Made by a program: the position numbers and the translations under genes
Notes under the pieces: generated by a model
The model's database searches: none
What the model saw: the letters and a program-made list of their open reading frames with translations, nothing else
What the model was told of the DNA's origin: nothing
Part shown: in pieces, positions 2,621-60,594 of the stretch
Position numbering within the stretch: the first letter of the stretch is position 1
Layout: every line of letters starts with the position of its first letter
Assembly (NCBI RefSeq): GCF_000007345.1
Contig: NC_003552.1
Location: 1,116,001-1,180,000, forward strand
DNA length: 64,000 nucleotides
Source of the DNA: Methanosarcina acetivorans C2A
Lineage (GTDB): Archaea > Halobacteriota > Methanosarcinia > Methanosarcinales > Methanosarcinaceae
Direction: 5' to 3'

Positions 2621-2908
2621 ACTGATCACTCCGGGGTTATTAAAATGTATATGGTTGGCTTTCTTAAATTATTTTGGCGGTTCATCTTTAAATGGTTAAG
2701 CTTAAATGACAAACAGGGTTTAAGCTTTTATGCCGATCAACCCGATGGGTTTTACTGCTTCCGGCATCACTTGCCGGACATATTCGGCCGTTCAGAATCC
2801 GGACTTCCACATATCCTAATTGATCGAAATTCCGTAAATTAGTGTGTCCTCATATGAGGGTAAATCAGATCACAAAGGTACATCAGGTCACAGGTAAATT
2901 CCCGTGAT

Positions 2909-3868: not shown

Positions 3869-5355
3869 AAGATAGGCTCCATCACTTTTTTCCAGGCTAC
3901 TTTTACAAGTTCGTCCGTGTCTCCTTCCTGCATAAGGCAGTCAAGAATCTTCTGGGCAATTTCCTTTTTATGGACAAGGTGACAGTCAACACAGCTCCAC
4001 ACTTTGCCGCCTCTTGAGCTCTGGATCCATTTTCCCCCGGTTTTCTCGTTTCCACAGGGATAAAACGGGCAGAAGCAGAAGGTGCAGTTCTGGCCTTCAA
4101 AATGGCAGGGGTAATATTCGCAGGTCTTCCTGCCTCCTATACCTTCTTCACTGGCCTTTTCTATCACGTGCTTCAGTTCGTTCTTTGCCTGTTCCCTGCC
4201 CCATTCGGTGATAACTTCCCCGAGTGCAGCAATGAGCCGGTCATTTTCTTTTTCGGTCCTGACAGCAACCCTTATGTACTTTTTACCAAGGCCGTGGAAA
4301 GAGACGCAGTCCCGGATAAGGACACCCTTGGCTGCAAGCCTTTCAGCCAGCTCACTTGAGTTAAGCATGAACTTACTTATATCGACAAAGATGAAGTTAA
4401 CATTCACTTCCCCGGCTTCAAGGCCCCTTATCCTGTCAATTTTGGCTTTGAGTGTTTCGCCTTCTTTCTGGATCATTTCCCTGGCTTTTTTCAGGTATGG
4501 GCTGTCAATCCCGCCTTCGATATTCAAAAATGCTACTCCGGTAGCATTTGCGATAGCTCCGAGGTTCCAGGACAGCCTTGCTGTATTCAGGATTTCAGCC
4601 ATAGCAGGAGATGCTATCCCGAAGCCCATCCTTATGCCGGGAATTGCAAAGGCCTTTGTAAGGGAGCGCATGACAAAAACGTAGTCATTGTCTGCAGGAA
4701 GGTCTGCAACGCTCTGTGATGGGTCTGCAAGCTCGATGAAAGCTTCGTCAACATAAAGAAGAGTTTTATGTTCTCTGCAGCGTTCGGCAAGGACTTTAAG
4801 CTCTTCTCTACTGCGGAGTTTTCCTGTGGGGTTGTTCGGGTTACAGATAAAAAGGATCTTTGCTTCTTCCAGCAGCTCATCAGAAAGTGTATTTACCTCT
4901 TCCTGCGCAGGGTATACCGGTTCTGCTCCCGCGATCCGGCACTGCATTTCATATTCTCCGAAAGTGGGCCAGGGTAAAAGGATCTTATCTCCTTTTTCGA
5001 CCACAGATTCGACTACAAGCCTAATTATTTCCGTTGAACCGTTGCCGGGAATAATATTCTGCGGTTTTACTCCCAGACATACAAACCTGGCCGCAGCTTC
5101 CCTGAACTCCAGATACCTGTTGTCAGGGTATTCCAGGAGTTTCGCACGAATCTCACTAATTATTTTGTCAAAGTTTATCCCGCTTTTCGGATAGTCAAAG
5201 GGACTACCAAGAGGGTTAAAGTTTGCACTGAAGTCGAGGATTTCGTTTTCGGGGATCCCGTACATCTCCGAAGTTGCCTGAATTAGCCCTCCATGTAAGC
5301 AGGGCTTCAGGGCCAGTAGATGCTCCCTTAAAGGTACACTTCTTTGCTCTGACAC
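3865..5355 (-). CDS. cobD: CobD: L-threonine-phosphate decarboxylase with C-terminal cysteine-rich domain
   Basis: 496 residues, longer than bacterial CobD (~360). Residues 20-385 form a PLP-dependent class I/II aminotransferase-fold decarboxylase: substrate/PLP motifs NPNNPTGKL, YVDEAFIEL and the probable PLP lysine in RSLTKAFAIPGIRMGFG. It makes (R)-1-amino-2-propanol phosphate for CbiB. Residues ~400-496 form a Cys/His-rich extension (CEYYPCHFEGQNCTFCFCPFYPC then CVDCH), a likely metal-binding module. The M. mazei enzyme with this extension has been reported to have metallocentres and threonine-kinase activity; that this copy behaves the same is inference. The annotated GTG start lacks a clear ribosome-binding site, so the exact N-terminus is uncertain. 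Confidence 0.92.
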   Translation of the reverse strand: MSEQRSVPLREHLLALKPCLHGGLIQATSEMYGIPENEILDFSANFNPLGSPFDYPKSGINFDKIISEIRAKLLEYPDNRYLEFREAAARFVCLGVKPQNIIPGNGSTEIIRLVVESVVEKGDKILLPWPTFGEYEMQCRIAGAEPVYPAQEEVNTLSDELLEEAKILFICNPNNPTGKLRSREELKVLAERCREHKTLLYVDEAFIELADPSQSVADLPADNDYVFVMRSLTKAFAIPGIRMGFGIASPAMAEILNTARLSWNLGAIANATGVAFLNIEGGIDSPYLKKAREMIQKEGETLKAKIDRIRGLEAGEVNVNFIFVDISKFMLNSSELAERLAAKGVLIRDCVSFHGLGKKYIRVAVRTEKENDRLIAALGEVITEWGREQAKNELKHVIEKASEEGIGGRKTCEYYPCHFEGQNCTFCFCPFYPCGNEKTGGKWIQSSRGGKVWSCVDCHLVHKKEIAQKILDCLMQEGDTDELVKVAWKKVMEPIL

Positions 5356-5826
5356 GTTGATCGCAAATATTTAGCGTGAATCCTGTATATTAAGTTGTTT
5401 ATTATATTAGCCGGTCCAAACTTGCCTTTATTTGCTTTGTGGTTATTTGATTGCGAAAACTCTGCCTTCTGGAATCCATTCTACTTTATTTTACTCAATA
5501 AATATATTTCTTATGATTTCCTGCCTTTCAGAATATGGTTTTTTTATCTGTCAATCTGTGTTTGTATTTTTCATTTGTGGAAGGCAAATAACGAAAAAGT
5601 AAAATAGCTTGTTTTTAACTAATCCATCCAGATAGCTGAAGAGAAGCGGAATAAATCTCTTACAACTACAGGAATACGGGCTATTTGCGAGAATTTATAT
5701 TATGTTTGTGGAATGTATAGAATGATTTTTCCTAAGATATGGCTGCGTATTCAGCAGAGTATGTCTTCAGCATATTTCCTTAATTTCAATATTTCTCTAA
5801 ATTCGATCTATCAGGTGCATTAAAAA
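5356..5826. other. Intergenic region between divergent cobD and hisS
   Basis: AT-rich 471-bp spacer holding the promoters of the corrinoid operon (minus) and hisS (plus). I found no B12-riboswitch-like structure and no convincing small gene. Runs such as TATATTAAG near 5388-5396 and TTTATATTATG near 5694-5704 could be TATA elements, but neither is certain. Confidence 0.5.
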
Positions 5827-7068
5827 ATGACAGTTAACAGGCCAAGAGGGACCCGGGACTTTTTACCCGCAGATACTGCCCGGAGAAGGTACGTGGAAAG
5901 CGTTATGCGAAATGTTGTCCGCAACTGGGGATACAGTGAAATCATTACGCCTACATTTGAACATCTGGACCTTTTTACCCTTAAGTCCGGGGAAGGCATA
6001 GTGGGGGAACTCTACAACTTCACGGACAAAGGAGGCAGGGATATGACCCTCAGGCCGGAACTTACGGCTCCTGTCATGCGGCTGTATGTAAACGAACTTC
6101 AGCCTTTTCCCAAGCCGTTGAAGTTATTCTACTTTGAAAATTGTTTCCGCTACGAGCGCCCCCAGAAAGGACGTTTCAGAGAATTCTGGCAGTTCGGAGT
6201 CGAACTCATCGGAAGCGGAAAATCCGACTCTGACGCCGAGGTTATTGCCCTTGCCGATGCCCTGTTAAAAGCTGTGGGCATTCAGGGTGACATGAAGCTC
6301 GGAAACCTTGCAGTGATCCGTACGCTTTTAAAAGGGCTTGAACCCGAGATCGTAAGTAAAGTAATGAGGCTTGTGGACAAGAAAGAGTATGCAGGTCTTG
6401 AATCCCTGCTTGAGGAAATCGGGGCAGAAGAACAGTTGAAGTCCGACCTCTTCCACCTGATACACCTTGAAGGCAAGTATATTCTCCCGAAGGTAAAAGA
6501 AATAGTCGGGAATATCCCCGAACTTGTAGGCTTTGAAAAGACTCTTAAACTTCTTGATGCGTACGGAGTCGATTACTCACTTGATTTCGGGATTGCCCGC
6601 GGGCTTGACTACTACACGGGTATGGTCTTTGAGGTTTATGCCGAGGGCCTGGGAGCTCAGAAGCAGGTCTGCGGGGGTGGCTCTTACCAGCTTATCCAGC
6701 TTTTCGGAGGTGGAGACGTGCCTTCCACGGGCTTCGGAATAGGTTTTGACAGGATTATGGAGATCTGCCCTCTCGTGCCGCCTGCATCCAAAAACCTTGT
6801 GCTGGTCTCAAAGCCCGCAACTCACATCGAAGCCGTAAAGGTTGCAAGCGAATTAAGAAATTACCTGCCTGTCCAGATAGACTTAATGGAGCGCAACTTT
6901 AAAGCCCAGTTCTCCTATGCAAACACCATTAACGCTGATTATGTGGTTATAGTCGGAGAAAAAGAACTCGAGGCAGGAAAACTGACTCTCAGGGATATGG
7001 TATCCGGAGAACAGGAACTTCTAACGCTGGAAGAGATTATTGAAAAAATTACAGGACAGCAGGATTGA
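5827..7068 (+). CDS. hisS: Histidyl-tRNA synthetase
   Basis: 413-residue class II aminoacyl-tRNA synthetase charging tRNA-His. Motif 1 region begins at RGTRDFLP (residues 6-13); motif 2 is visible as [20 protein letters not shown]; the histidine signature [13 protein letters not shown] and motif 3 ([11 protein letters not shown]) follow, and a C-terminal anticodon-binding domain covers about residues 325-413. Length is normal for the family. CAGGTG nine bases before the ATG is a plausible ribosome-binding site. The gene stands alone; an IS element begins 24 bp after its stop. Confidence 0.97.
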
Positions 7069-7092
7069 AAGTTTTCCTTTTATTCTGTTTTG

Positions 7093-8760
7093 CAGGCTGT
7101 CTCATAACCATTTTAAATTGTACAATTGGGTAATACCCATTTCAATTTTTATTTCATTTCAACAATGAGAGATAATTTTCATGGATCAACATAGAGTATT
7201 TGTTATTCTCGCTCGAATTCCCCCTTTATTCCATCCTTTACTTCCTCCTCCAACTATCATTTTCAGCATACTTTTCAGGTTTTTCCCTTCTCTTTTTATA
7301 AAGTCTGCTATTTTCTTTATATTATGTACAGTACACATCATAACAAATTCAATTCCTGTCTTCCTTTTTCCTCTCAATAGGAATTCTCTGAACCCTCTAT
7401 CCTGTTTCATCTGACCAAACACAGGTTCTACGGTAGACATTCTTTTCTGATACTTTTCTGTCCCCTTCTCTGTGTTCAGTTTATCCCTCATATCCTCCAT
7501 CAAATGTTCCCTAGGATCTCTTGTTATTGTCCTTTTTCCGCTCTTAGTACATGCATTTTTCAGCACACACTGAGAACAATAGCTACATACATAATACCTT
7601 AAATCAGGTTCACCTTTCCTCTTTTGTATTCTTGTAAAGGGGATTTCAAATGCAGCAGGACAATAATAGCAGTCTTTTTGTTCATCGTATGTAAAAAGAG
7701 ACTTCCTGAACCTCCTGGTTTTTCCTTCTTTTTCAGCTTTATAGAAATTGTCAGGAATATAAGCATCAATTCCTTCTTCCTGTAAAAATTCCAGATTCTC
7801 ATATGAGAAATAACCTGCATCTGCAAGTACTATTGTTGGTTTATATCCCAGTGTGTTTTTTACATTCTGTATCATTGGTTCTATTTGATGAAGGTCGTTT
7901 TCTTCGTTGACAACGTCTGCTGCAACGATTATTTGCTCTTTTTCATCAACAGCAACCTGACAATTGTAGGAAGGTTTCTTGCTTCCATCTTTATGCTTCA
8001 TAATTCGAGCATCGTTATCTGTGATGTTTATTTTTTTCAGCTTTTCTTCATCAAGCTTCTTCTTAGCAGCTTTTATTTTTTCCAGTCTTTTCTTCTTGTC
8101 AACAAGCTCTTCTGGAATCTGATATGGTGTTGAATCACCATAAATTTCATCTTCATGTTTATCTGTCTCAATACTCTCTTTAAGTATCTTATCTATTTCT
8201 TTTTCGAGAGCATCCGAACTCTTGCTCTGTCTTGATGAAGCATTTGCCTTAACCTTTGTTCCGTCAATTGAGATACTGGAACCAATCATATCCATTTCTT
8301 TACAAAATGTGACAACCTGGGAAAAGATTTCTTTTATAGGGCCAAGATGAGTTGAACGGAATCGACAAATCGTATGAAAATCAGGTTTTTGCATGGCTGC
8401 CAGATACATAAATGCAGTATCAGTTTGAGTCATTTGTTGCAGTTTACGTGAACTTCTAATGCCTATAAGGTAACCATAAAGTAATATTTTTAAAAGAGGT
8501 CTTGGATGATAGGCTGGGCAGCCTTCCTTAGAGTAAGTGGATTCAATAGCAGTGATATCAACGACATCTACGATGTCGTTTAGTACTCTGGCGATATGGT
8601 TTTCAGGAACAAAATCTTCCAGGTCTAACGGAAGTAAAAACTGCTGCTTTTGATCGTACTTTCGAAACATGGGAAACACTGGAATTTGTTTTGTAAAAAA
8701 GATAAAGATTACGGGTTTCTGACCCAAATGTATGATAGAGTATAGTTTTGAGACAACCTG
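7093..8760 (-). mobile_element. IS1182-family-like insertion sequence (1668 bp)
   Basis: Ends are inverted repeats: CAGGCTGTCTCATAAC at the left and, read from the right end inwards, CAGGTTGTCTCAAAAC. The element is flanked by the 4-bp direct repeat TTTG (7089-7092 and 8761-8764), interpreted as target duplication. It carries one transposase gene on the minus strand. It lies in the hisS/pilin-cluster spacer and breaks no recognisable gene. Confidence 0.85.
7186..8670 (-). CDS. IS1182-type DDE transposase
   Basis: 494 residues from the ATG at 8670 (M-F-R-K-Y-D-Q). The frame is open for another 19 residues upstream, but family members begin at MFRKYDQ. N-terminal helix-turn-helix-like part (residues ~10-100: RPLLKILLYGYLIGIRSSRKL) and a DDE catalytic core with DGTKVKA, VLADAGYFSYENL and TVEPVFGQMKQDRGFREFL, giving Asp, Asp and Glu in expected order. 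A Cys cluster (CYYCPA, CSYCSQC) lies between. The frame is intact, so the element may be active. Confidence 0.9.
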   Translation of the reverse strand: MFRKYDQKQQFLLPLDLEDFVPENHIARVLNDIVDVVDITAIESTYSKEGCPAYHPRPLLKILLYGYLIGIRSSRKLQQMTQTDTAFMYLAAMQKPDFHTICRFRSTHLGPIKEIFSQVVTFCKEMDMIGSSISIDGTKVKANASSRQSKSSDALEKEIDKILKESIETDKHEDEIYGDSTPYQIPEELVDKKKRLEKIKAAKKKLDEEKLKKINITDNDARIMKHKDGSKKPSYNCQVAVDEKEQIIVAADVVNEENDLHQIEPMIQNVKNTLGYKPTIVLADAGYFSYENLEFLQEEGIDAYIPDNFYKAEKEGKTRRFRKSLFTYDEQKDCYYCPAAFEIPFTRIQKRKGEPDLRYYVCSYCSQCVLKNACTKSGKRTITRDPREHLMEDMRDKLNTEKGTEKYQKRMSTVEPVFGQMKQDRGFREFLLRGKRKTGIEFVMMCTVHNIKKIADFIKREGKNLKSMLKMIVGGGSKGWNKGGIRARITNTLC

Positions 8761-8764
8761 TTTG

Positions 8765-9252
8765 GCTTTTTTTTTATTTTTTCCTTTCTTTTCATTTGCA
8801 ATCTAGTAGCTCCTGGTTACGTTGATCTATTGCGGAATTCCAGAGATTATTTTTCGTTTTTCTCTTCCTGCGCCACGTGGGGGATGGAACCGCCTGTCAG
8901 CCAGATGATGCTTTTCTTAACTCTGGAAGCCGTTTTTCGATTCCCTCAAACATAATTGCTTCTGCTAGCTTGCCTATCTACTCTTCAAAAAAGAAGTGGA
9001 TACCTATTTTTAGCACGTATTCCGCTCTCCTGGTTGAACTGGAAAGGAACGACATAATAACGTGAAACGTGTTATGCTATTTTTATAGTAAGATTTATAT
9101 CAGTCTTATTATACTAAATGATGACTACTGTGTATATTTATTGTCTTATGCTCTCATTTAATCCCGAGACAATCTTTTTATAGTCTGACTGCCTAAAGTT
9201 TATTGCACCGAGTTTCCAAAGTTTTCCGAAATCCGGATCGGGGGGTAGAGTT
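8765..9252. other. Intergenic region upstream of pilin-like cluster
   Basis: About 490 bp between the IS and the pilin-like genes. A 62-codon open frame at 8877-9065 has no recognisable features and was not called. TATA-like AT runs occur around 9076-9115 and 9177-9183 and are candidates for the promoter of the downstream cluster. GGGGGGT at 9240-9246 is the likely ribosome-binding site for the first gene. Confidence 0.4.
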
Positions 9253-9768
9253 ACGGCTGGGAAAGCACAGGTTTTAGCCTGTCAAATTGTAACTGATGAG
9301 TCTGCAGTATGCGGGCTTCCTTTCAGGCTTACAGTTACGGGAGTTGTCTTTGCCGTACTTCTGCTCCTTTCTGCAATCCATGTTTCTGGTTTTCTGGAGC
9401 AGGCAAGGGAACAGGAAGCCCTGGATGAAGTTTCAAAACTAACAGCGGCTGCCGAACAGCTTTCCATGCGTGGAGAAGGGAGTGCAATTGCCTTTGAAAT
9501 AAGGATACCCCAAAGGGTGTCTGTGGACTTTGGAGCTCTGCCCGGTTTGGAGAGACACTGGCCCGAGGATGCAGATAATTACTGTATAACTATAGGAGGG
9601 AAGTCAACCTTCTATCCTGCGGCTGCTTCCTTTTCGAATCCGGAGTGTGATGGACCATTTTCACTTGGTCCGGGCAGGCATATGTTGGTCCTTTCAACAA
9701 AGCTCGAACCCGAATCCGGTAGGCTTTTCGTCCTGATATCTGAAACAGGGGATGATAGAAAAACATGA
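9253..9768 (+). CDS. Pilin-like exported protein 1 (start codon non-canonical)
   Basis: About 171 residues if translation begins at ACG 9253-9255, six bases after GGGGGGT. The frame has no ATG, GTG or TTG before 9466, which would remove the only membrane segment. The peptide DESAVCGLPFRLTVTGVVFAVLLLLSAIHVSGFL-type N-terminus (residues ~16-45) is an acidic head followed by a 20-residue hydrophobic helix, as in archaeal type IV pilin-like proteins; a heptad-like stretch and a beta-rich domain follow. First of four co-oriented genes with similar architecture; its stop overlaps the next start (ATGA at 9765). The IS just upstream may have displaced original neighbours. Function beyond 'pilin-like' is unknown. 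Confidence 0.55.
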   Translation, partial: TAGKAQVLACQIVTDESAVCGLPFRLTVTGVVFAVLLLLSAIHVSGFLEQAREQEALDEVSKLTAAAEQLSMRGEGSAIAFEIRIPQRVSVDFGALPGLERHWPEDADNYCITIGGKSTFYPAAASFSNPECDGPFSLGPGRHMLVLSTKLEPESGRLFVLISETGDDRKT

Positions 9769-10397
9769 GGTCAGGAGAAATCCGCAGGGAAAAGGATCTT
9801 TTAAAGGATGATTCGGCGTGGGCTGACTTTTTAATCTCAAAGGGAGCCCTTATCCTTGCCAGTGTAATCTTCTTTGCAGCCTTTTTTCAATTGATTGCAG
9901 GGTTTAAAGATCTTGAGGCTCAAGAACAGCTTGAGTTCCTTGCCAGGGATTTCAAAGTAGTGGTGGACGAAGCTGGAGCAGAGAGTTTTGAGAGAGAGGC
10001 TTCGGAAGAGTTTTCCTATCGCTTTGATGAGAACGAAATCTTTCGGGCTTCTCCGTTTGGGAAAAATATAGAGGTTTTGGTTTCAGGAGAGTATGTTCAT
10101 TTGAAGGCAAAATATGATGAAAAAAGTTTCAGCGCTGTAAGACCCTTTGCTTTCAGGGTTCTGCCTTTCAACGAGTCCGTACTCCGGGAAAGTCTGCATA
10201 CAGAGTTCGGAGCGGAGGGATGTGAAGACTCTCCTCTTACAGCTGAACTTCAGGAAATTAAGGCTTTCCTTCAGGTCTCAGGGGCCAGGGAAGTGGTTTT
10301 GAACGCAGGTGAAAACGTCTCCATAAAGAAAGAACTTATTTATTTGAAGGATAGTGAGGGGGTCTCTGCTTTTGGTTGCGTCCTTGTTTATCAGTAA
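9765..10397 (+). CDS. Pilin-like exported protein 2
   Basis: 210 residues. Short charged N-terminus (about 27 residues, REKDLLKDDSAWADFLISKGA) followed by one hydrophobic helix (ALILASVIFFAAFFQLIAGF, residues ~31-50) and an extracellular domain with little hydrophobicity. The start ATG overlaps the previous stop by four bases, so it is translated together with gene 1. No enzymatic motif. Most likely a minor pilin or pilus-accessory protein; this is inferred from topology and gene arrangement only. Confidence 0.65.
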   Translation: MRSGEIRREKDLLKDDSAWADFLISKGALILASVIFFAAFFQLIAGFKDLEAQEQLEFLARDFKVVVDEAGAESFEREASEEFSYRFDENEIFRASPFGKNIEVLVSGEYVHLKAKYDEKSFSAVRPFAFRVLPFNESVLRESLHTEFGAEGCEDSPLTAELQEIKAFLQVSGAREVVLNAGENVSIKKELIYLKDSEGVSAFGCVLVYQ

Positions 10398-49604: not shown

Positions 49605-49637
49605 TATCACTATAATCGATTAATATCACTATAATCG
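49605..49637 (+). promoter_or_regulatory. Direct repeat in frh promoter region
   Basis: TATCACTATAATCG occurs at 49605-49618 and 49624-49637 (19-bp period), ahead of which TATTATAGAA is repeated twice. The closeness to frhA (55 bp) suggests overlapping promoter/operator elements for the operon. Confidence 0.45.
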
Positions 49638-49691
49638 TAACTCTGGAAGGGGGAAATCCAAGAGTACAGAATCGAAAGCGAGGGGATGCCA

Positions 49692-51062
49692 TTGACGAAA
49701 GTTGTAGAGATCTCTCCAACCACTAGACATGAAGGCCACTCCAAGCTCACCCTGAAGGTGAATGATCAGGGTATCGTCGAGCGAGGAGACTGGCTCTCTA
49801 TCACCCCGGTAAGGGGTATTGAGAAACTCGCCATAGGTAAGACGATGGAACAGGTTCCGAAGATTGCATCTCGGGTCTGTGGTATCTGTCCCATCCCCCA
49901 CACCCTGGCAAGCATCGAGGCTATGGAGGCCTCTATCGGCTGCGAGATCCCCACGGACGTAAAGCTCCTGCGGGTCATTCTCCATGCCGCGAACCGCCTC
50001 CACAGCCACGCCCTGCACAATATCCTGATCCTTCCGGACTTTTACATCCCCGGGACGGAGACGAAGATCAACCCGTTTTCCAAGGAGCAGCCTTTAAGGA
50101 GCGTTGCGGTGAGAATTTTCCGCATTCGTGAGATTGCACAGACCATTATAGCCGTCGCAGGCGGCGAGGCGATCCACCCCTCCAACCCGAGGGTCGGCGG
50201 GATGTACCGCAACGTGAGCCCCCGGGCAAAGCAGAAGATGGCCGACCTGGCAAAGGAAGGCCTCGTCCTTGCCCACGAACAGATGGAGTTCATGCTCGAG
50301 GTCATCAGGAACATGCAGAATAGGGGGTTCACCGATGTCGCGGGCAAGGAGATCCCGATTCCCAGAAATCTAGGGTACCACAACCAGGGGGTTATGGCCA
50401 CAGCCCCTATGTACGGCTCATCCAGTCTGGACGAGAAGCCCATGTGGGACTTTGCCCGGTGGAAAGATACCCGACCATGGGATTGGTACATGGGTGAGGT
50501 TACCATCGATCTTGAGGATCCGAGCTACCCGATAGGCGGCACCACGAAGGTCGGCACTAAAGCCAATCCCCGGATGGAGGCCTGCAACACCGTTCCGACC
50601 TACGACGGCCAGCCGGTTGAGGTCGGTCCGAGAGCAAGACTCGCTACTTTCAAGAACTTCACCGAGAAGGGCACCTTCGCCCAGCACATCGCCAGGCAGC
50701 TGGAGTACCCCAACTGCTTCTACACCATCCTCAAGTGCCTTGACAATCTGGATACTTCGGGAAAGGTCCTCGCCGACCACATCCCTCAGGGAGACGGGTC
50801 CATGGGCTGGGCTGCAAACGAGGCCCCGCGCGGGACCGATGTCCACATCGCACGGGTGAAGGACGGGCGGGTGCTGTGGTATGAGATGCTTGTACCCACA
50901 ACCTGGAACCTCCCGACCTGTAGCCGCGCTCTGACGGGAGCGCCCTGGCAGATCGCCGAGATGGTTGTCCGGGCCTATGACCCGTGCGTTGCGTGCGCAA
51001 CCCACATGATCGTAACGGACGAGGAGAACAGGATAGTTGCCAAGAAGCTCCTCCAGTGGTGA
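49692..51062 (+). CDS. frhA: Coenzyme F420-reducing hydrogenase alpha subunit (NiFe)
   Basis: 456 residues from TTG 49692 (GAGGGG six bases upstream; ATG 49686 touches that site). Large NiFe subunit: RVCGICPIPHTLAS near residue 60 and DPCVACATHM near the C-terminus supply the four Ni-Fe cysteines; the tail after the His is the peptide removed by the FrhD-type protease. It oxidises H2 and passes electrons to the Fe-S subunit. First gene of frhADGB. The operon is visibly more GC-rich than its surroundings. Confidence 0.97.
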   Translation: MTKVVEISPTTRHEGHSKLTLKVNDQGIVERGDWLSITPVRGIEKLAIGKTMEQVPKIASRVCGICPIPHTLASIEAMEASIGCEIPTDVKLLRVILHAANRLHSHALHNILILPDFYIPGTETKINPFSKEQPLRSVAVRIFRIREIAQTIIAVAGGEAIHPSNPRVGGMYRNVSPRAKQKMADLAKEGLVLAHEQMEFMLEVIRNMQNRGFTDVAGKEIPIPRNLGYHNQGVMATAPMYGSSSLDEKPMWDFARWKDTRPWDWYMGEVTIDLEDPSYPIGGTTKVGTKANPRMEACNTVPTYDGQPVEVGPRARLATFKNFTEKGTFAQHIARQLEYPNCFYTILKCLDNLDTSGKVLADHIPQGDGSMGWAANEAPRGTDVHIARVKDGRVLWYEMLVPTTWNLPTCSRALTGAPWQIAEMVVRAYDPCVACATHMIVTDEENRIVAKKLLQW

Positions 51063-51068
51063 AGGGAA

Positions 51069-51548
51069 ATGGATTCGCTGTACTCCGAGATCGTGGTGGC
51101 AGGCTGTGGCACCCCGCTCTATGCGGACGATGGGTTCGGACCCGCAGTCGTGGAGAGTCTCAAGGGACTTGAGCTTCCCGAGAACGTCACGGTCGTTGAC
51201 GCAGGGCTCGGAGGTCCCCATTTTGTCTTTACCCTCCTCAATCCCGAGTCCACGAAGACTCTTATCATCGTGGACATTGCGGACTTCGGAGGGGAACCCG
51301 GCGAACTCAGGTGGCTTGCCGTTGACGAGCTCCCCGTCGGGAGCTACCGGGACGCCCACTCCTGGGATCTGGCCGAGCCACTCCAGTACATTAAGGATGA
51401 TATCCGGATCCGGGTCCTTGCATGCCAGAAGAAGTACGTTTCTACCCCTGAGATGGTCATCGGGATTACAGATGAGGTGCAGAGAGCCATTCCGGACGCT
51501 GTATCCGAGATACTGAAGGAAATCGGGATGAATTATGGAACTGCTTAA
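51069..51548 (+). CDS. frhD: F420 hydrogenase maturation protease
   Basis: 159 residues. HycI/HybD-like endopeptidase that cleaves the C-terminal extension of FrhA after nickel insertion. The metal-binding motif GCGTPLYADDGFGP (Asp near residue 17) and a DIADFGGEPGE stretch correspond to the nickel-sensing acidic residues. Six bases after frhA, with AAGGGA as ribosome-binding site. The presence of D rather than E between A and G distinguishes this from the freAEGB type. Confidence 0.93.
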   Translation: MDSLYSEIVVAGCGTPLYADDGFGPAVVESLKGLELPENVTVVDAGLGGPHFVFTLLNPESTKTLIIVDIADFGGEPGELRWLAVDELPVGSYRDAHSWDLAEPLQYIKDDIRIRVLACQKKYVSTPEMVIGITDEVQRAIPDAVSEILKEIGMNYGTA

Positions 51549-51579
51549 GAAGGTGGAAGCTACAAAGGAGGCGAAACCA

Positions 51580-52341
51580 GTGGCAAACAAGATCAAGCTC
51601 GGGCATGTACACTTTAGCGGCTGTACCGGCTGCCTTGTGTCCGTGGCCGATATCTACCAGGGACTTCTCAAAATCCTGGACGACTACGCCGACCTCGTCT
51701 ACGCCCTCACGCTTGTCGACGTCCGACATATCCCGGAGATGGACGTGGCGCTTGTCGAGGGGTCGGTCTGCATCCAGGACCGTGAATCGGTGGAGGATAT
51801 CAAGGAGACGCGGAAGAAGTCCAGGATCGTGGTGGCTCTCGGCTCCTGTGCGACCTACGGGAACATCACCCGGTTCTGCCGCGGAGGGCAGCACAACCAG
51901 CCCCAGCATGAGTCCTTCCTCCCTATCGGGGATCTCATCGACGTGGATGTCTACATCCCCGGATGCCCTCCAAGCCCGGAGCTAATAAGGAACGTCACTG
52001 TCATGGCGTACCTGTTCCTGGAAGGGAATGAGGAACAGAAGGCCCTTGCAGGCAGGTACTTAAAGCCCCTCATGGCCCTTGCGAAGCGTGGCACAACCGG
52101 ATGCTTCTGCGACCTGATGAACGACGTGATCAACCAGGGCCTCTGCATAGGCTGTGGCACCTGCGCTGCATCCTGTCCCGTGCGGGCGATCACCCACGAG
52201 TTCGGGAAGCCGCAGGGTGACCTTAACCTCTGCGTCAAGTGCGGGTCCTGCTATGGCGCCTGCCCGAGGTCGTTTTTCAACTTCGACGTGATTCCTGAAT
52301 TCGAGAGCATCAGCGAGCTAATCGCAGACGCGCTTAGGTGA
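51580..52341 (+). CDS. frhG: F420 hydrogenase gamma subunit (Fe-S electron transfer)
   Basis: 253 residues from GTG 51580, eight bases after AAGGAGG; an ATG at 51535 overlaps frhD and adds 15 residues. Small-subunit part with GHVHFSGCTGC and CPPSPE cysteines for the proximal cluster, followed by two ferredoxin-type [4Fe-4S] motifs (CIGCGTCAASCP and CVKCGSCYGACP). It conducts electrons from FrhA to FrhB. Confidence 0.96.
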   Translation: MANKIKLGHVHFSGCTGCLVSVADIYQGLLKILDDYADLVYALTLVDVRHIPEMDVALVEGSVCIQDRESVEDIKETRKKSRIVVALGSCATYGNITRFCRGGQHNQPQHESFLPIGDLIDVDVYIPGCPPSPELIRNVTVMAYLFLEGNEEQKALAGRYLKPLMALAKRGTTGCFCDLMNDVINQGLCIGCGTCAASCPVRAITHEFGKPQGDLNLCVKCGSCYGACPRSFFNFDVIPEFESISELIADALR

Positions 52342-52351
52342 GGTGAGAAAG

Positions 52352-53227
52352 ATGGTTTCGGATCCGTATCTCGGAAAATACACAACCTGCATCTCGGCAC
52401 GGAGCACGGACAGGGAGATCCTGAAGAAGGCACAGGACGGCGGCATCGCCACCACTCTCATGGTCTATGCCCTCGAAGAGGGGATAATCGACGGGGTCAT
52501 TGTGGCAGGTGAGGGCGACCTGCCCTGGAAGCCCAGGCCATTCGTCGCGATGAGCCGCAAGGATATCCTCAAGGCACAGAAGGCTAAGTACAACATCAGC
52601 CCCCAGATCTCCTGGATCAAAGAGGCGACCCGGTCCTTCGGCCTCGACAAGGTCGGGGTCACCGGCGTCTGCTGCCAGATACAGGCTGTCAGGAAGGCCC
52701 AGCTATATCCTATCAACATGCGGGATGTCCCCGGCAAGATCGCGTTCGTAGTAGGGCTCTTCTGCATGGAGAACTTCCTGTACGATTCCATACAGGCCAT
52801 TGTCGAGGACCACACGAACCAGAGCCTCAGCTCCGTAAAGAAGATGAGGATCGGGAAGGGTAAGTTCCAGGTCTACACCGAGCGTGGGAACGTAGCCACC
52901 GCGCCGCTCCAAGCGACCCATAAATACGGGCAGCCCGGCTGCTACGTCTGCCTCGATTATGTCTCAAACCTCGGCGACATCTCAACCGGCTCGGTCGGAA
53001 GCCCCGACGGCTGGTCCACGGTCTTCGTCCGCACCAGGGTGGGGAATGACATCTGGTCCAAAGCAGTCGACGCAGGCCTTTTTGAGACTAAGCCCATCGA
53101 GGAGGTCAAACCCGGCCTGGAGCTCGTCATGAAGCTTGCGAAGATAAAGCTCGACGGGAACCGGAAGACACTCGAGGAACGCAGGAATTTCGGTGTTAAT
53201 AAGGCGTTAAGGGATCCTTACGCCTGA
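52352..53227 (+). CDS. frhB: F420 hydrogenase beta subunit (F420/FAD binding)
   Basis: 291 residues from ATG 52352 with GAGGTGA upstream (GTG 52343 would lie inside it). FrhB/FdhB family: the KAQDGGIATTLMVYAL motif near residue 25, GVTGVCCQIQA and PGCYVCLDYVSNLGDISTG for the FAD and [4Fe-4S] sites. This is the site of F420 reduction. Last gene; followed by a T-rich tract (TATCTTTTTTTC at 53231-53242) that may terminate transcription. Confidence 0.96.
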   Translation: MVSDPYLGKYTTCISARSTDREILKKAQDGGIATTLMVYALEEGIIDGVIVAGEGDLPWKPRPFVAMSRKDILKAQKAKYNISPQISWIKEATRSFGLDKVGVTGVCCQIQAVRKAQLYPINMRDVPGKIAFVVGLFCMENFLYDSIQAIVEDHTNQSLSSVKKMRIGKGKFQVYTERGNVATAPLQATHKYGQPGCYVCLDYVSNLGDISTGSVGSPDGWSTVFVRTRVGNDIWSKAVDAGLFETKPIEEVKPGLELVMKLAKIKLDGNRKTLEERRNFGVNKALRDPYA

Positions 53228-53484
53228 ATTTATCTTTTTTTCGTCATAGAAATTATTCGGCGTTATTGCACCAAAAAAAGAGATGGGAGGTTCTCATCCT
53301 CAAATTCTGATTTCCAACTCTGTAACTTATCTATCGAGCTATAGCGGCTGAGAGATGCCGAATCTATGGGAGTGGAGTCTCTTCAAATATTGTACTTGGG
53401 AATTAAAGAATAGAATTTCAGTGTCAATAATTCCTATGCAACACAAACTCATAATCATACCTAAAAAGTACTAGGAACCATTTT

Positions 53485-54885
53485 TCACATATAAAAATAA
53501 TAATGTGAATCAAGTTCTGAGAATTTTTGTGCCTCAGTTTCACTCATTACTTGACCAACTTTCCTTGAGACTGATATAGTAACAGGCATTCTTGAGTACA
53601 CAAAAGTATTGTTCCAGTCTAATTTAGTAAATGATAATATTTCCTTGCATACTTGAACCAATGAAGTGTCTAAATTGAAAGGCCTTATCTCCAAGGCTCT
53701 TGGAATTGAAAAACCAGGATAAGTGTTTAAAGAAGGGACAAAGCCTGTTGAAAATAAGAAACCCGATGTATCATCTTCAAGTGACAGTAATGTTCCTCTC
53801 AAAATAGGATATCGGCCTTGGGTGAATAGTTTTAAACTTGACTCTAGTATCGTAATAAAATCCTTTTGAGGAACATTTTTTGTGGCTTCACGAAAGCCTT
53901 CTAACTCATCATTCCAGAAGTTAGAACTTTTATGAACTACGACCCTGTTTGGATTTTGTCGTCTTATTGATCTGTAATGTTCCAAAACGTAATTCATTAA
54001 ATTGTAGGCGTCATCTTTAGATAAATGGGGACTTTTAGGATGCTTCATATTAGTCCAATTAAAAGAGTCTCCTCTTAATACAAAACTTTCTCCTGTATCT
54101 AAAAAAATTTGAGCTAAGCTAGCCCTTCTAGTTTCTTTACCCTTCTCATTAAAAAAAGAAATACCAACATAGCATGTGTTTTCCTCTAAGTGCGTAAGTT
54201 TCCAAGGATGTCCTTTTTGGCATTTGTATAACATACCAACTACAAGATTCCAAGCAACTATGCATCTCTCTTGTGTTCCGTCTAACAAAAGTGTTTCTGG
54301 TCTAACGATTTGAGATGGGATCTTTTGTTGCATGGCCAGTAGCTTAATTCTATTGCGAAAATCATCAATCCCAACTTTAATCAAAGGTTTATCTGTTTCT
54401 GAGCATTCACAAATAGTATAAAATTCTTGTGGAAAACTGATTAAAATTATGTCAGGAGGAGTTTCTTTTTCATAAATTAGTTTTAATTTTCTTTTTATTA
54501 GGTTCAAAGCCGCTTCTGAAGAAGAATTTGCTGCTTGTAGTTTATCTAAATCAGTAGGCTCTATTATTGATTCCCATTCTGGATTAAAAACAAACCTGAA
54601 TTTTAACTTTGAATTCGAATTCAAACCTGGAAATGGTATTTTCCAAGGTTTTATTTCTCCTAAAGGTAATATTTTATACTGAAGGGTTTCAAATAACTCC
54701 TTTGTCAGAGCAATAGATTTGGAAGAACCAATAATTCCTACTTTAAATTCTCTAAAATCATTATTTTTACTACCTGAGAAGCGGGGACCATATTTTGTTA
54801 GCCCAATGCACGGATTTAAAGATGTTCCTCCACTATTAAACAACAGCTTTGGCTCTTTAATGTAATCTACTTTAAACCCTTTCAT
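53485..54885 (-). CDS. Short prokaryotic Argonaute (MID-PIWI, catalytically inactive)
   Basis: 466 residues, no N or PAZ domain. MID about 145-232 (PDIILISFPQEFY; FRNRIKLLAMQQKIPSQIVR; AWNLVVGMLYKCQKGHPWKL) and PIWI ~235-466 (CYVGISFFNE; NRVVVHKSSNFWNDE; YPILRGTLL; TYPGFSIPRALEIRPF), ending HYYFYM as in short pAgos, whose C-terminal carboxylate helps bind the guide 5' end. The first catalytic Asp of PIWI is replaced (Gly241-Ile-Ser243), so it should bind guide and target without cutting. One base downstream of the nuclease-APAZ gene: a two-gene operon of the SPARDA type. Expected role: guide-directed sensing of invading DNA. Confidence 0.9.
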   Translation of the reverse strand: MKGFKVDYIKEPKLLFNSGGTSLNPCIGLTKYGPRFSGSKNNDFREFKVGIIGSSKSIALTKELFETLQYKILPLGEIKPWKIPFPGLNSNSKLKFRFVFNPEWESIIEPTDLDKLQAANSSSEAALNLIKRKLKLIYEKETPPDIILISFPQEFYTICECSETDKPLIKVGIDDFRNRIKLLAMQQKIPSQIVRPETLLLDGTQERCIVAWNLVVGMLYKCQKGHPWKLTHLEENTCYVGISFFNEKGKETRRASLAQIFLDTGESFVLRGDSFNWTNMKHPKSPHLSKDDAYNLMNYVLEHYRSIRRQNPNRVVVHKSSNFWNDELEGFREATKNVPQKDFITILESSLKLFTQGRYPILRGTLLSLEDDTSGFLFSTGFVPSLNTYPGFSIPRALEIRPFNLDTSLVQVCKEILSFTKLDWNNTFVYSRMPVTISVSRKVGQVMSETEAQKFSELDSHYYFYM

Positions 54886-54886
54886 T

Positions 54887-56284
54887 TCATTCCTCGAAAT
54901 AATCAGTCAACTTTGGATAATAATTGTCTTCGTAGTCAAAATTCTCATCGAATATTTCTCCACTCTCCACTTTGCAGGGCATCTCAAATATCATTCTCTC
55001 AAAAGTAAATTGATTTTTATAATTAAACTGGTTAAAATCAAGTATATTTGAATTGGAAATCTGTAAACCTATAGCCTTCAATAAAAAGTACATTTTACTT
55101 TTCTCAGGATCATTAAACGCTTTTGTGGGAGGGAACTTATAATTCAGCCTTTTTGCGTGTTCACCAGTTATTATATTTTTCCCGTCAGTACTAAATAATC
55201 TATAGTTGTCAAATAGTACAAAAAAATGTCCATTAAGTACCATCGTCCTGAATTTCAAAGCCCTATGAACAATGAAATTTATGGAGCCGTCTTCTTTGAA
55301 ATAAATTCTTGATAAGTACCTTAACTTTTCATTTTCAACTTTAATTTTTGATATTGCACAATCAAAGTCTGTATGTGGTTTATACAAACTTTTTCCAAAG
55401 AGACGAAAACCTTGCTCTGAAGCTTTTTGAATTATTTGAGTTCGAATCAGTTGGGATATCAAGCTATTCTTATCGGTAGACTCAAGCCCTATGTCACAAA
55501 AGTTAATTTTCCGGTAAGAGTTAATTTCACAATAGTCTGACAACAAATTTTCGGGAATTTCTCTAATTGAATATAAAATTCCTTTGAATGGAACATGAAA
55601 TTTCGAGGAATTATTTCCCCAATATGAGTTTAAATCAACTTGAGACTTCAGCTCTGCTAAACAAATAGATTCTGGGAATGATTTCACTAAATAGCAGTTA
55701 CTATCCAACTTCTCGGGTTGAAAGACTAAATTCTCAGTTTCTTCTAAGTAGTCTGCTCCAGAATCATAAACATTATCTTCTCTAATTTGCTCGATTTTTT
55801 GGAATAATTTAACATAACTCGCTTGATAGACTTTTGTGGAATTGATAAATTTTATAAAGGATCCATAATTTGAATCTTGTAATTCTGTGACCCTTTTAAT
55901 CTTATCGTAAAAATGGCGCAGTTCTTCCTCAGATTGAATTGACAAATCGAATATTTTTTTCCATTTGTTTATATTAGCTACCTCTCTAACAAATATAAAC
56001 AGATTGAATTCTTCTTTTAAACTGCTCATGAAATATTTAGCGAATTCCTTTAGAAAATCTGTATCGCTTAAACTCAGTTTTGTCTCTTTGACTTCTACAA
56101 CTGTTCTTTTATATCCATCAAGTTTTGGATTTCTAAATACTTTATCTGAGAAAATACCCTCAATATTTGAGTCGTGTTCCAAGTGATAACCTTGCAAGTT
56201 TAGGAATTCGATTATTTTCTTCCCATATTCTTTACTATTTTGTGTTGTAGCTTCGCGCTCTCCTTCCAAATTTATAAACGGCAT
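54887..56284 (-). CDS. Nuclease-APAZ partner of short Argonaute (DREN-APAZ-like)
   Basis: 465 residues. N-terminal ~150 residues look like a PD-(D/E)xK nuclease: after a helix, PKLDGYKRTVVEVKETKL provides Asp56, Glu64 and Lys66 in the right order. The remainder has APAZ-like segments (FHVPFKGILYSIREIP; YKPHTDFDCAISKIKVEN; RALKFRTMVLNGHFFVLFDNY; LNYKFPPTKAF), which occupies the place of the N/L1 domains of long Argonautes and binds the pAgo partner. GGGAG four bases before the ATG; TATA-like GTAATATAATTATAA at 56331-56345. By analogy with SPARDA, target recognition would unleash collateral nucleic-acid degradation. It lacks TIR or Sir2 signatures. Confidence 0.85.
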   Translation of the reverse strand: MPFINLEGEREATTQNSKEYGKKIIEFLNLQGYHLEHDSNIEGIFSDKVFRNPKLDGYKRTVVEVKETKLSLSDTDFLKEFAKYFMSSLKEEFNLFIFVREVANINKWKKIFDLSIQSEEELRHFYDKIKRVTELQDSNYGSFIKFINSTKVYQASYVKLFQKIEQIREDNVYDSGADYLEETENLVFQPEKLDSNCYLVKSFPESICLAELKSQVDLNSYWGNNSSKFHVPFKGILYSIREIPENLLSDYCEINSYRKINFCDIGLESTDKNSLISQLIRTQIIQKASEQGFRLFGKSLYKPHTDFDCAISKIKVENEKLRYLSRIYFKEDGSINFIVHRALKFRTMVLNGHFFVLFDNYRLFSTDGKNIITGEHAKRLNYKFPPTKAFNDPEKSKMYFLLKAIGLQISNSNILDFNQFNYKNQFTFERMIFEMPCKVESGEIFDENFDYEDNYYPKLTDYFEE

Positions 56285-56800
56285 TCTGCTCCCTTCATAA
56301 CTTTTTAGGAGAAATCATTGAGTTAATTAGGTAATATAATTATAATCATGAAATGTAAGCACTTCACTAACATCAAAAATTCATAATATTATAAAGACAA
56401 CTCTAATATTTATAATGGTAGTAATTGTATTCGAAAACATTTTTGCTAACAAAAAGTAATGTTTTGCTATCGTAGGCGCAGCGTCAAGATGTAAAAGGTA
56501 AAGTTATAATCATAAGGTTCCTTGGTGCTTATTAACCTAATTATGAGGATAAATACTGCTAATATTGTACCATCTGTAACGCGTTTTATGAATCTACTGA
56601 TTCTACTTCGCTTTTTTTGCCCGTTTCCGCCCGATATCTTCTCCTTTCGCGAGCATGCGGGCGTGGAGGGAAGTTTTAAGATGAGTCTAAAAAAGCTTAT
56701 TTTAAGCAGATTGTTAAAGCTGAGAAAGTAAAAGCATGAGTAACTTTATCAGTTTTTCAATTGTCATAATATAAATGCTATAATTGCTATAGTAACTATT
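56285..56800. other. Intergenic region with promoter of the Argonaute operon and a dispersed repeat
   Basis: Contains the minus-strand promoter next to 56284, then AT-rich DNA, and the first ~70-bp dispersed repeat at 56611-56681. No gene is supported; a 69-codon frame at 56522-56731 covers the repeat. Confidence 0.5.
56611..56681. repeat. Dispersed ~70-bp intergenic repeat, copy 1
   Basis: Core GATATCTTCTCCTTTCG then AGCATGCGGGCGTGGAGGGAAGTTT, preceded by CTTTTTTTGCC. Two more copies lie at 57491-57561 (closest) and 58841-58915 (diverged). The GC-rich GCATGCGGGCGTGGAGGG block is conserved best. Could be a small non-coding element or a mobile miniature sequence. Confidence 0.8.
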
Positions 56801-56995
56801 ATGTCAGAAACTACAACTATACAGATATCTAAAGACACCCGTGATGAGTTAAAAGCCATTGGGAAAATGGGGGATGACTACAATACAGTTATACGAAAAT
56901 TGATCCATGAACACAACTGCAATAAACTTATAGAAGAAGGCGATAGGCTCATAAGAGAACATCGTGATGAGTTCGTGAGCATCGATGAGCTTTAA
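56801..56995 (+). CDS. Antitoxin of RelBE-type module
   Basis: 64 residues. Small acidic/basic protein with a beginning TTTIQISKDTRDELKAIGKMG that fits a ribbon-helix-helix DNA-binding fold, and a C-terminal helical part (IREHRDEFVSIDEL) to neutralise the toxin. Overlaps the toxin start by 11 bases, so the pair is coupled. Confidence 0.8.
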   Translation: MSETTTIQISKDTRDELKAIGKMGDDYNTVIRKLIHEHNCNKLIEEGDRLIREHRDEFVSIDEL

Positions 56996-57254
56996 AGTTC
57001 TGATCCACCCTAAGGTCTTCGAAAAGGTTCCTGTAGATCGTAGGGATCAAATAAAAGATGCCCTTCAAGAACTAAAAGACCCCTTGCCAGGGGGAAACAA
57101 AAAAGAAGTAAAAGGAAGTCACAAAACTGTCTATCGGCTTCGTATAGGCGATTTTCGTATTTTATACGAAATTGATTTTGAACGAAGCGAGGTTCTTGTT
57201 TTTAATATAATAACGGCTGAACAGGCGCATAAGAAGTACAACCGTTTTAAATAA
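56985..57254 (+). CDS. RelE/ParE-family toxin
   Basis: 89 residues. Typical RelE layout: VLIHPKVFEKVPVDRRDQIKDALQELK helix pair, then VYRLRIGDFRILYEIDFERSEVLVFNI strands with basic Arg/Tyr residues of the RNA-cleaving surface, ending HKKYNRFK. Likely ribosome-dependent mRNA interferase. Intact module with the upstream antitoxin. Confidence 0.88.
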   Translation: MSFKVLIHPKVFEKVPVDRRDQIKDALQELKDPLPGGNKKEVKGSHKTVYRLRIGDFRILYEIDFERSEVLVFNIITAEQAHKKYNRFK

Positions 57255-57490
57255 TCCCTAAACGTTTTTTTCTCACGATTGAAAAGAGGCAGAAAAGTGT
57301 GAGAGTCAGAACGTCGAAGACATAATAAAGATACATCCGAAGAGGCGAGGGCTCACTTCATCCTCATCATGTGCACTCTTCTTGGGATCCTGGCTGTTTT
57401 CTCCTCTTCGGGCTACTGGGTTACTCTCTTCCTCTCTCCCTCTCTTCCTCTCTTCCTGGACTATATGAACCTCTCATGGCTTCTCCTTAT

Positions 57491-57561
57491 CTTTTTTTGC
57501 CAGCATCTGCCCGATATCTTCTCCTTTCGTTAGCATACGGGCGTGGAGGGAAGTTTCAGAT
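57491..57561. repeat. Dispersed ~70-bp intergenic repeat, copy 2
   Basis: Nearly identical to 56611-56681 through GATATCTTCTCCTTTCG and GGGCGTGGAGGGAAGTTT. Sits in the 420-bp gap between the RelBE-type and VapBC-type modules; the remainder of that gap (57255-57490, 57562-57681) has no supported gene. Confidence 0.8.
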
Positions 57562-58840: not shown

Positions 58841-58915
58841 TTCTTTTTTGACAGTGGGACCGTCCGGTATCTGCTCACTTCGTGGGCATGCGGGCGTGGG
58901 GGGACGTTTTAAAAT
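58841..58915. repeat. Dispersed ~70-bp intergenic repeat, copy 3 (diverged)
   Basis: Keeps CTTTTTTTGAC, GGTATCTGCTCACTTCG, GGGCATGCGGGCGTGGGGGGA and CGTTTTAAAATGA. Lies in the gap 58622-59152, which otherwise has no supported gene. Confidence 0.7.
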
Positions 58916-59320
58916 GAATTTTTAAAAAAAATTGAAAACTCTTTCATAATCAACAAGGTGCTGCTTGATCCCTACACCTAAAACTCTCCTATTTTTCACC
59001 GTTGAAATTATTAGCGTTATCTACACGAACATGGGGTGGAGTAGAGTTCATCCCGGGATGATGAATCTTAAAGCAAAATAATTTTAGGATTGAACAATCT
59101 GTCTCTTGTAATAAATTATTGAGAATGATGGCTTAAAAGTTATGAAAGAATAATGAACAGTAATTTGGAGAGAGATAAGACGAAAAAAAACATATGGTTC
59201 GTGATTGCCTCGTTGAGTTATATTATAGCAATTGGTTTTATTATTGCATATTTTATCGGTGGATACTTTCCCTATATAGTTATAGCTGTGATGTGGGCGT
59301 GTATAGGAAGTCTGGATATA

Positions 59321-60594
59321 CAGTACTTCTCTAATTTTCATTTCCTCATAAACGAGGCTGTTCGATACCTTTATATGTGATAAAATCTGCCTCCGTATGT
59401 CTTTTCCGCCATATAAATCTGGATATGCCCCTAAAATTGAATTAAAGGCAAAAGAATGTATTGATGCCGTATTAAGACCTCTCAATGACCATGTAACCAT
59501 AAAGATCAATGGTTCCCTTACAAGTGAAGACGTTTTTCGTACTGTTGTAAGTATGGCAGTCAACAGGAATTCTGTTCATTCAGTCTCAACACAGTATCAG
59601 GATGTTGCTTGTGAAACCTCTCTTCGATACCACCTTAAGAAACTGGATATGGATGAACTGATCAAATCGAATGAAAAGATTCTCCTTCAAGAACTAATAG
59701 AAACCCTAAAAACAGGTAAAAGCTACGAATTCGCTGTCGATTATACCAATGATCCCTATTACGGGAAAAAAGATTCATCTAACGAGAAATATGTAATAGG
59801 TGGACAGGCTAAAAAGTCAACAAACTCATTTTACTCGTATGTCTCCCTTTATATCATTAACAAAACTGAGAGGTTTACCTTATCAGTTCTTCCTGTCGAA
59901 AAGAAAAAGACAAAGGTTGAATATCTCTCCCATTTCATTGATCTCATCAAAAGACTGGACTTTAAAATTAAAATTCTCTGCCTGGATAGAGAGTTTTGTA
60001 CTATTGACGTTTTTAAATTTTTGCAAAGTAAGCAGATTCCACACATCGTTCCGGTTATTAAAAAAGGAGAGCGGATGAAGAAACTACTTAAGGGAAATAA
60101 GGCGCGTAATGAACAATATGTTATGGGGAACTCTAAGAAAAATATTCTTTTGGACATTGTAATTGACGTCAAGTATCTGAAAGGCAAAAGAGGAAAAAAG
60201 GGACGTAAGAACCTTGGTTTTGTGGTTTTTGGAGTCAAATGGTCTCCAAGAAAGGTCAGTACGGTTTACAGAAGAAGATTTGCTATTGAATCGTCGTACA
60301 GGATGAGAAATGTAGTTAAACCAAAGACCTCATCCAAAAACGCCAGTATCAGGTACTTTTATGCACTGATATCTTTCCTGTTAAAAAACGTATGGCTATT
60401 TCTTCAGAAAAAGCATTTTACGATTGTCAAAAGAGGCCCTCAGGTAATAGATGAGGACAAGTTCAGATTTAGAATGTTTGTAGTTCTAATTGAGGAATGG
60501 TTGAAAAGAAAGTTGAGAGTTAGGTTAATGGTGGAGTGTTTGAGGTAAATGAAGGTGAGTGAAAGGTGGAGGAGAGATTTTTAGCGAAGTACTG
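59321..60594 (+). mobile_element. ISH3-family-like insertion sequence (1274 bp)
   Basis: Inverted ends CAGTACTTCTCTAA (left) and CAGTACTTCGCTAA (right, reversed), flanked by 5-bp duplication ATATA (59316-59320 and 60595-60599). Carries one transposase. The 5-bp duplication and transposase type agree with ISH3. Confidence 0.88.
59397..60548 (+). CDS. ISH3-type transposase
   Basis: 383 residues. DDE core visible: YEFAVDYTNDPYYGKKD, KILCLDREFCTIDVFKFLQ and RRRFAIESSYRMRN (Glu), with the arginine-rich Y-R/R-R/E motif typical of IS4-like superfamily members. Frame complete. Confidence 0.88.
   Translation: MSFPPYKSGYAPKIELKAKECIDAVLRPLNDHVTIKINGSLTSEDVFRTVVSMAVNRNSVHSVSTQYQDVACETSLRYHLKKLDMDELIKSNEKILLQELIETLKTGKSYEFAVDYTNDPYYGKKDSSNEKYVIGGQAKKSTNSFYSYVSLYIINKTERFTLSVLPVEKKKTKVEYLSHFIDLIKRLDFKIKILCLDREFCTIDVFKFLQSKQIPHIVPVIKKGERMKKLLKGNKARNEQYVMGNSKKNILLDIVIDVKYLKGKRGKKGRKNLGFVVFGVKWSPRKVSTVYRRRFAIESSYRMRNVVKPKTSSKNASIRYFYALISFLLKNVWLFLQKKHFTIVKRGPQVIDEDKFRFRMFVVLIEEWLKRKLRVRLMVECLR

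Follow-up and report, generated by a model that had tools for sequence, protein, structure and literature searches.

What is encoded by the two adjacent genes on the minus strand of this part of the Methanosarcina acetivorans chromosome, and do they constitute a SPARDA operon, as a preliminary description made from the sequence proposed? Positions given here refer to the window, the whole 64,000-nucleotide stretch of DNA that was analysed. The open reading frame list places the operon's first gene, for a 465-residue nuclease-APAZ effector, at 54,887–56,284 (minus strand), and the gene for a 466-residue short prokaryotic Argonaute (pAgo, MID-PIWI) at 53,485–54,885 (minus strand). As first described, both reading frames are intact and a single nucleotide separates them (junction TGA-A-ATG); the effector comes first in transcription, and its first ATG is preceded by a purine-rich, Shine-Dalgarno-like stretch (AAGGGAGCAGAATG). 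A promoter scan returned counts equal to the shuffle mean, using a sigma-70-type consensus that is uninformative for an archaeal host. The effector matches the PADLOC profile Aga_REase_Archaea (PDLC02417; E=4.1e-170, residues 28-462, profile positions 1-415 of 416), as do 18 of the 19 aligned family members, and the pAgo matches PADLOC pAgo_I (PDLC02376; E=2e-139, residues 4-466), both at E values that chance could not plausibly produce. These matches identify the pair as a two-gene archaeal Argonaute-based system, composed of a catalytically dead short pAgo and a putative nuclease-APAZ partner. The existence of the family was already known from the Aga_REase_Archaea profile, which defines it in silico; the M. 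acetivorans pair belongs to the same Aga_REase_Archaea and pAgo_I family and shows no sequence difference from it. What is new here is the assignment of D47 to the active site, the affinity of the nuclease and the phylogenetic separation of the family. The papers searched contain no experiment on any member of the archaeal REase-APAZ clade, and the literature search found no paper on the M. acetivorans pair, which is weak evidence of absence, as subscription papers lay mostly outside the search.

The Argonaute is a short pAgo, as had been proposed: its best solved relatives in a sequence search of the PDB are the pAgos of SPARHA (208 bits), SPARDA (about 170 bits) and SPARTA (about 138 bits), all of them short pAgos and none a long active Argonaute. 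Ser243 occupies the first DEDX position, in agreement with the earlier reading, and is invariant in 12 of 12 aligned pAgos. Ser320 appears to replace the third catalytic aspartate, judging from an alignment by eye of H318-K-S320 with the usual RDG motif, and from these residues the PIWI catalytic tetrad is read as lost. The residues that hold the 5' end of the guide are retained. NbaAgo contacts the guide 5'-phosphate through R183, K187 and K240 (PMC12205087); residue mapping aligns these with R177, K181 and K221, and N232 with N213, and K181, K221 and N213 do not vary among the 12 aligned pAgos. The HK/RK-type 5'-phosphate motif of the MID domain (PMC6299218) is thus present as R177/K181 in the M. 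acetivorans protein and as H/K in several relatives. Other features of NbaAgo are not kept: the side chains that contact the guide 2'-OH groups, S447 and N451, align with N426 and Y430, and most filament-interface residues are not conserved, so that both a filament mode and an RNA guide become less certain. An RNA guide is nonetheless likely by kinship, although it cannot be read from the pAgo residues. Comparison with the Methanolobus pAgo (dN 0.18, dS 2.37, the latter near saturation) shows that the protein is under purifying selection. The pAgo match is unique in the host genome (a single contig of 5,751,492 bp), and the protein appears to be the sole Argonaute of M. acetivorans; the Pfam Piwi model found no further pAgo in the genome, a weak check because the model also misses the M. 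acetivorans pAgo at the threshold used.

The C-terminal part of the effector (residues about 187-446; 54,947–55,726, minus strand) is an APAZ domain, as the preliminary description had supposed, and this is clear both by profile and by predicted fold. Using hhalign, it matches five effector-APAZ classes: DUF4365-APAZ (E=7e-15), Schlafen-APAZ (E=9e-20), TIR-APAZ (E=1e-17), SMEK-APAZ (E=1e-14) and HNH-APAZ (E=1e-7). A sequence search of the PDB with the single effector protein found no match, and a search with the family profile matched the APAZ domains of SPARHA and SPARDA. In the AlphaFold2 model of the effector (pLDDT 78), the APAZ domain superimposes with VIA on that of SPARDA 9qbl with a Z score of 17.4 and an rmsd of 3.9 over 245 residues; SPARDA chains are the closest by fold (Z 17-18), followed by SPARHA (15.3), SPARTA (about 14) and SPARSA (about 11). 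Pfam detects no TIR or SIR2 domain in the effector and the fold predicted for its N-terminal domain is of the PD-(D/E)xK kind, both in keeping with the nuclease type that had been suggested. SPARTA and SPARSA thus share the APAZ fold and the dead short pAgo with the archaeal pair, but carry TIR or SIR2 NADase effectors instead.

The N-terminal domain (residues 1-179, or about 1-178; 55,748–56,284, minus strand) was modelled alone with AlphaFold2 (pLDDT 83, pTM 0.79). The predicted order of elements is a1 (17-30), b1 (34-38), b2 (48-51, after D47), b3 (60-70, containing E64 and K66), a2 (75-90) and b4 (93-102), a PD-(D/E)xK topology that places D47 at b2 and E64 and K66 in b3. Seven residues are invariant across 18 aligned effectors: E11, Y20, D47, E64, K66, W108 and F112. 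Of the catalytic set first put forward, Asp56, Glu64 and Lys66, the last two are therefore conserved. D56 is present in M. acetivorans but gives way to arginine or other residues outside its closest relatives, and we reject it as the catalytic aspartate; D47 is the conserved acidic residue. On the strength of conservation and the predicted fold, we assign the active site to D47-E64-K66. Pfam assigns no nuclease domain to this protein, its only match being a subthreshold one to DUF4806.

The same domain bears on whether the pair is a true SPARDA. In that case the effector nuclease would be a DREN (DUF4365) domain that has diverged, and it would be switched on by the filament-tetramer route of SPARDA. 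The nuclease of NbaSPARDA carries D41 in its second strand and Q60-x-K62 in its third (PMC12205087), at the same strands as D47 and E64-x-K66 here; the order of helix, aspartate strand and (E/Q)xK strand is shared, and the spacing from D to E is 17 residues as against 19 in NbaSPARDA. Together with the closeness of the APAZ fold to SPARDA chains, this speaks for a DREN origin. However, the SPARDA site is D-QxK and the archaeal site D-ExK, and the DUF4365 Pfam model, a sequence-level test that readily detects the domain in a protein of a neighbouring clade (L084), matches 0 of 18 family members. Alignment of the effector nuclease domain with the DUF4365 domain by hhalign gives a Prob of 0.1%, and DREN identity is rejected by sequence. 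The isolated nuclease domain also resembles other enzymes best: the top VIA matches are LmuA of Lamassu (Z 9.5), HerA-DUF (9.3), Cap4 (8.5; rmsd 3.5 over 142 residues), Hachiman (8.2) and Avs3 (7.3), all from the Cap4/LmuA/DUF4297/HamA group, although these Z scores are only modestly above background and sequence identity is 6-13%. Foldseek gives a best E of 0.004, and PADLOC SAVED_PDDEXK produces a weak single match (E=0.002 over 46 residues). No SPARDA chain occurs among the 50 best VIA matches for the isolated domain, which leaves room for a SPARDA fold. Since the top matches are all one kind of defence nuclease, a possible affinity to the Cap4/LmuA/DUF4297/HamA nucleases is a lead from the predicted structure. 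DUF4297 has been described as Cap4-like and activated by complex assembly (PMC12198126). The effectors of this group, found in CBASS, Lamassu, HerA-DUF4297, Hachiman and Avs3, work without an APAZ or Argonaute partner, unlike the archaeal pair, and the likeness is one of predicted fold. We tentatively propose, as a possibility of somewhat less than even weight, that the archaeal short-Argonaute branch took up a Cap4/LmuA-type DNase, also present in CBASS, Lamassu, HerA-DUF4297, Hachiman and Avs systems, and not a DREN nuclease. If so, effector modules would have been exchanged among guide-sensing, cyclic-nucleotide-sensing and SMC-type immune systems.

The phylogeny of the pAgo sets the pair further apart from SPARDA. 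In a midpoint-rooted tree, whose sample was drawn with motifs of the REase-partnered clade and in which L033 and L100 are long branches, all 19 REase-partnered pAgos fall in one clade (support 100/99). When the pAgos of Nba- and EaeSPARDA and AcaSPARHA and a SPARTA fragment were added, the same 19 were recovered together (99/99), apart from a bacterial clade (96/98) that contains the SPARDA, SMEK and HNH systems. Because the pAgo belongs to its own strongly supported clade with a REase-APAZ partner, we conclude that the pair is a separate archaeal system, albeit probably SPARDA-like in its working. It shares with SPARDA (Nba, Xau, Eae, Tmu) the two-gene layout, the dead short pAgo, the APAZ domain and an N-terminal nuclease of PD-(D/E)xK type, and to this extent the original SPARDA-like reading holds; it differs in that the DREN/DUF4365 nuclease is not detectable in the archaeal effector, in the clade of its pAgo and in being mostly archaeal, and a strict SPARDA assignment is, on this evidence, unlikely. 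SPARHA, an HNH-APAZ protein with a short pAgo from Acidithiobacillus caldus (9om4), supplies the best solved pAgo relative by sequence, but its nuclease is HNH and not PD-(D/E)xK, and its pAgo groups with SPARDA in the tree.

Members of the REase-partnered clade occur in methanogens, haloarchaea, DPANN archaea and ANME-1; outside these groups, they were seen in a single CPR bacterium (L023) and on a single IMG/VR contig (L100). The view that such systems are known mainly from bacteria thus holds for those with DREN nucleases and fails for the REase-APAZ family, whose mostly archaeal distribution also qualifies a 2018 survey in which APAZ proteins were almost only bacterial (PMC6299218). The viral contig, which is putative (IMGVR_UViG_3300037843_001625), carries a complete pair, with genes for a TIR-like protein and a putative methyltransferase nearby, as identified by eye. 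A genome-wide scan yielded 80 pAgo loci, nearly all preceded by a gene in the same orientation whose product has the size of an APAZ partner. At the clade's loci the REase-APAZ gene lies directly upstream of the pAgo gene with a spacing of about -14 to +14 nt; at L035 the upstream reading frame runs off the contig. At least seven N-terminal partner types are seen (REase, Schlafen/AlbA_2, TIR, HNH, SMEK, DUF4365 and an unnamed type from Bathyarchaeota), with representatives of five confirmed by Pfam and the other labels assigned by eye from N-terminal sequence. One pAgo-APAZ chassis therefore carries at least seven effector types, and the type appears from these sequences to follow pAgo phylogeny closely.

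Within its phylum the family is sparse, being present in 16 of 393 sampled genomes; the Methanosarcina species in this sample other than M. acetivorans all lack it. The M. acetivorans pAgo pairs with that of Methanolobus and then with that of a nanoarchaeal MAG, so that transfer of the pair among archaea is likely. Further signs of horizontal transfer are the low GC content of the operon, its absence from the other sampled Methanosarcina and the haloarchaeal copies, which are often plasmid-borne and labelled hypothetical. In a separate draw, a pAgo sequence adjoined the effector in 16 of 16 family genomes, with genes broken or shortened in 3, and the system seems to decay often. The effector is split in one relative (G266), in two pieces beside a shortened pAgo match in another (G345, L130, C1:353000-361000), and the pAgo match is short in a third (G181, L008). 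Such losses might suggest that the M. acetivorans operon is itself a non-functional remnant, but both of its genes are intact, every conserved residue is kept and the pAgo is under purifying selection relative to Methanolobus, leaving only a very slim chance of this. In G266, a relative from the Methanolobus genus group, about 7.6 kb separate the halves of the REase-APAZ gene (L129, C1:685000-700000, positions 2478-10086); the insert holds a PstS-PstC-PstA-PstB-like phosphate transport set flanked by two near-identical DDE transposase genes, apparently a composite transposon in an immune effector, and its transposase resembles one encoded at 59,397–60,548 of the window.

The operon occupies a variable site, as had been suspected. 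G395, a related Methanosarcina and the closest relative with a sequenced genome that the search turned up, shares the neighbouring frh operon (49,623–53,313) at 89% conservation, and the low-GC region that follows, at 53,314–57,492, has no aligned counterpart there; GC content is 32% in the operon and 43% in the window. At the same spot behind frhB, the relative encodes a NACHT-HEAT STAND protein of 1081 residues (L123:9476-12721, downstream of frhB), together with an IS transposase and an HsdR-N fragment. Because that genome holds other defence and mobile genes where M. acetivorans has its low-GC operon, the spot looks like a turnover site of such genes and may serve the genus Methanosarcina as a defence hotspot. 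Two of the toxin-antitoxin neighbours first reported, the genes for a ParE-like and a PIN-domain toxin, pass the Pfam cut-offs, and a HicB-like gene falls just below. Repeats of 70-76 bp that are 80-87% alike (56,601–56,676, 57,481–57,556 and 58,860–58,929) flank the two toxin genes and may be what is left of an insertion or recombination element. Transposase genes flank the operon region on both sides, which could mean that the pair acts on endogenous elements such as insertion sequences, regulating or silencing them, instead of providing immunity. Defence genes, however, typically show the patchy distribution, carriage on plasmids and frequent decay seen for this system, and we hold a regulatory or silencing role to be very improbable.

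We consider it probable that the pair is a guide-loaded immune system that is triggered by DNA, activated by assembly and cuts DNA indiscriminately. The nuclease-APAZ protein would join the dead pAgo in a heterodimer, with APAZ supplying the missing N-like lobe, and the complex would load a short guide that bears a 5'-phosphate and is most likely RNA. Pairing of the guide with complementary DNA of a plasmid, virus or transposon would cause complexes to assemble, bringing several PD-(D/E)xK domains together; the clustered domains would switch on as a metal-dependent nuclease (D47, E64, K66) and cut DNA indiscriminately, and the cell would be killed or arrested, or the invader cleared. In this scheme, SPARDA and SPARTA relatives are the source for the heterodimer, the chemistry of the guide, DNA as the trigger, activation through assembly, collateral cutting and the role in defence. 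Alternatively, the nuclease could cut the recognised target itself without collateral DNA destruction. The domain does resemble restriction-type PD-(D/E)xK folds, and Makarova proposed in 2009 that the associated nucleases attack the target that a guide-loaded pAgo recognises (PMC2743648), yet both TmuRE-Ago (PMC10810196) and NbaSPARDA (PMC12205087) cut DNA non-specifically once activated, and we judge such guided restriction decidedly unlikely. For the favoured assembly-driven mechanism, the latter study leaves undecided how general the target-induced filament is. The nuclease-type short-Argonaute systems that we found with experimental study are bacterial. M. acetivorans is a genetically tractable methanogen. 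As the host is tractable and this is apparently its sole Argonaute, one can test in an archaeal cell where the guides come from, what the trigger is and whether the outcome is death or clearance.

Two other partner types were seen among the archaeal loci. At the Bathyarchaeota pAgo loci L037:4703-5983 and L051:959-2233, the partner is of APAZ size; Pfam gave no match for that of L037, and the N-terminal sequence (SSGHELDVF...YVEIIWS) looks like another PD-(D/E)xK nuclease. A Schlafen AlbA_2-APAZ protein is encoded upstream of short pAgos at ten loci (L036, L038, L039, L042, L046, L052, L060, L065, L069 and L079) from Methanoperedens, ANME-1, Woese-, Micr-, Nano- and Thaumarchaeota. No Schlafen-named profile occurs among the PADLOC matches of the AlbA_2-APAZ protein, and the AlbA_2 domain (Pfam PF04326) was detected with E values down to 9e-11 in three proteins tested; these partners possibly represent an undescribed class of short-pAgo effector.
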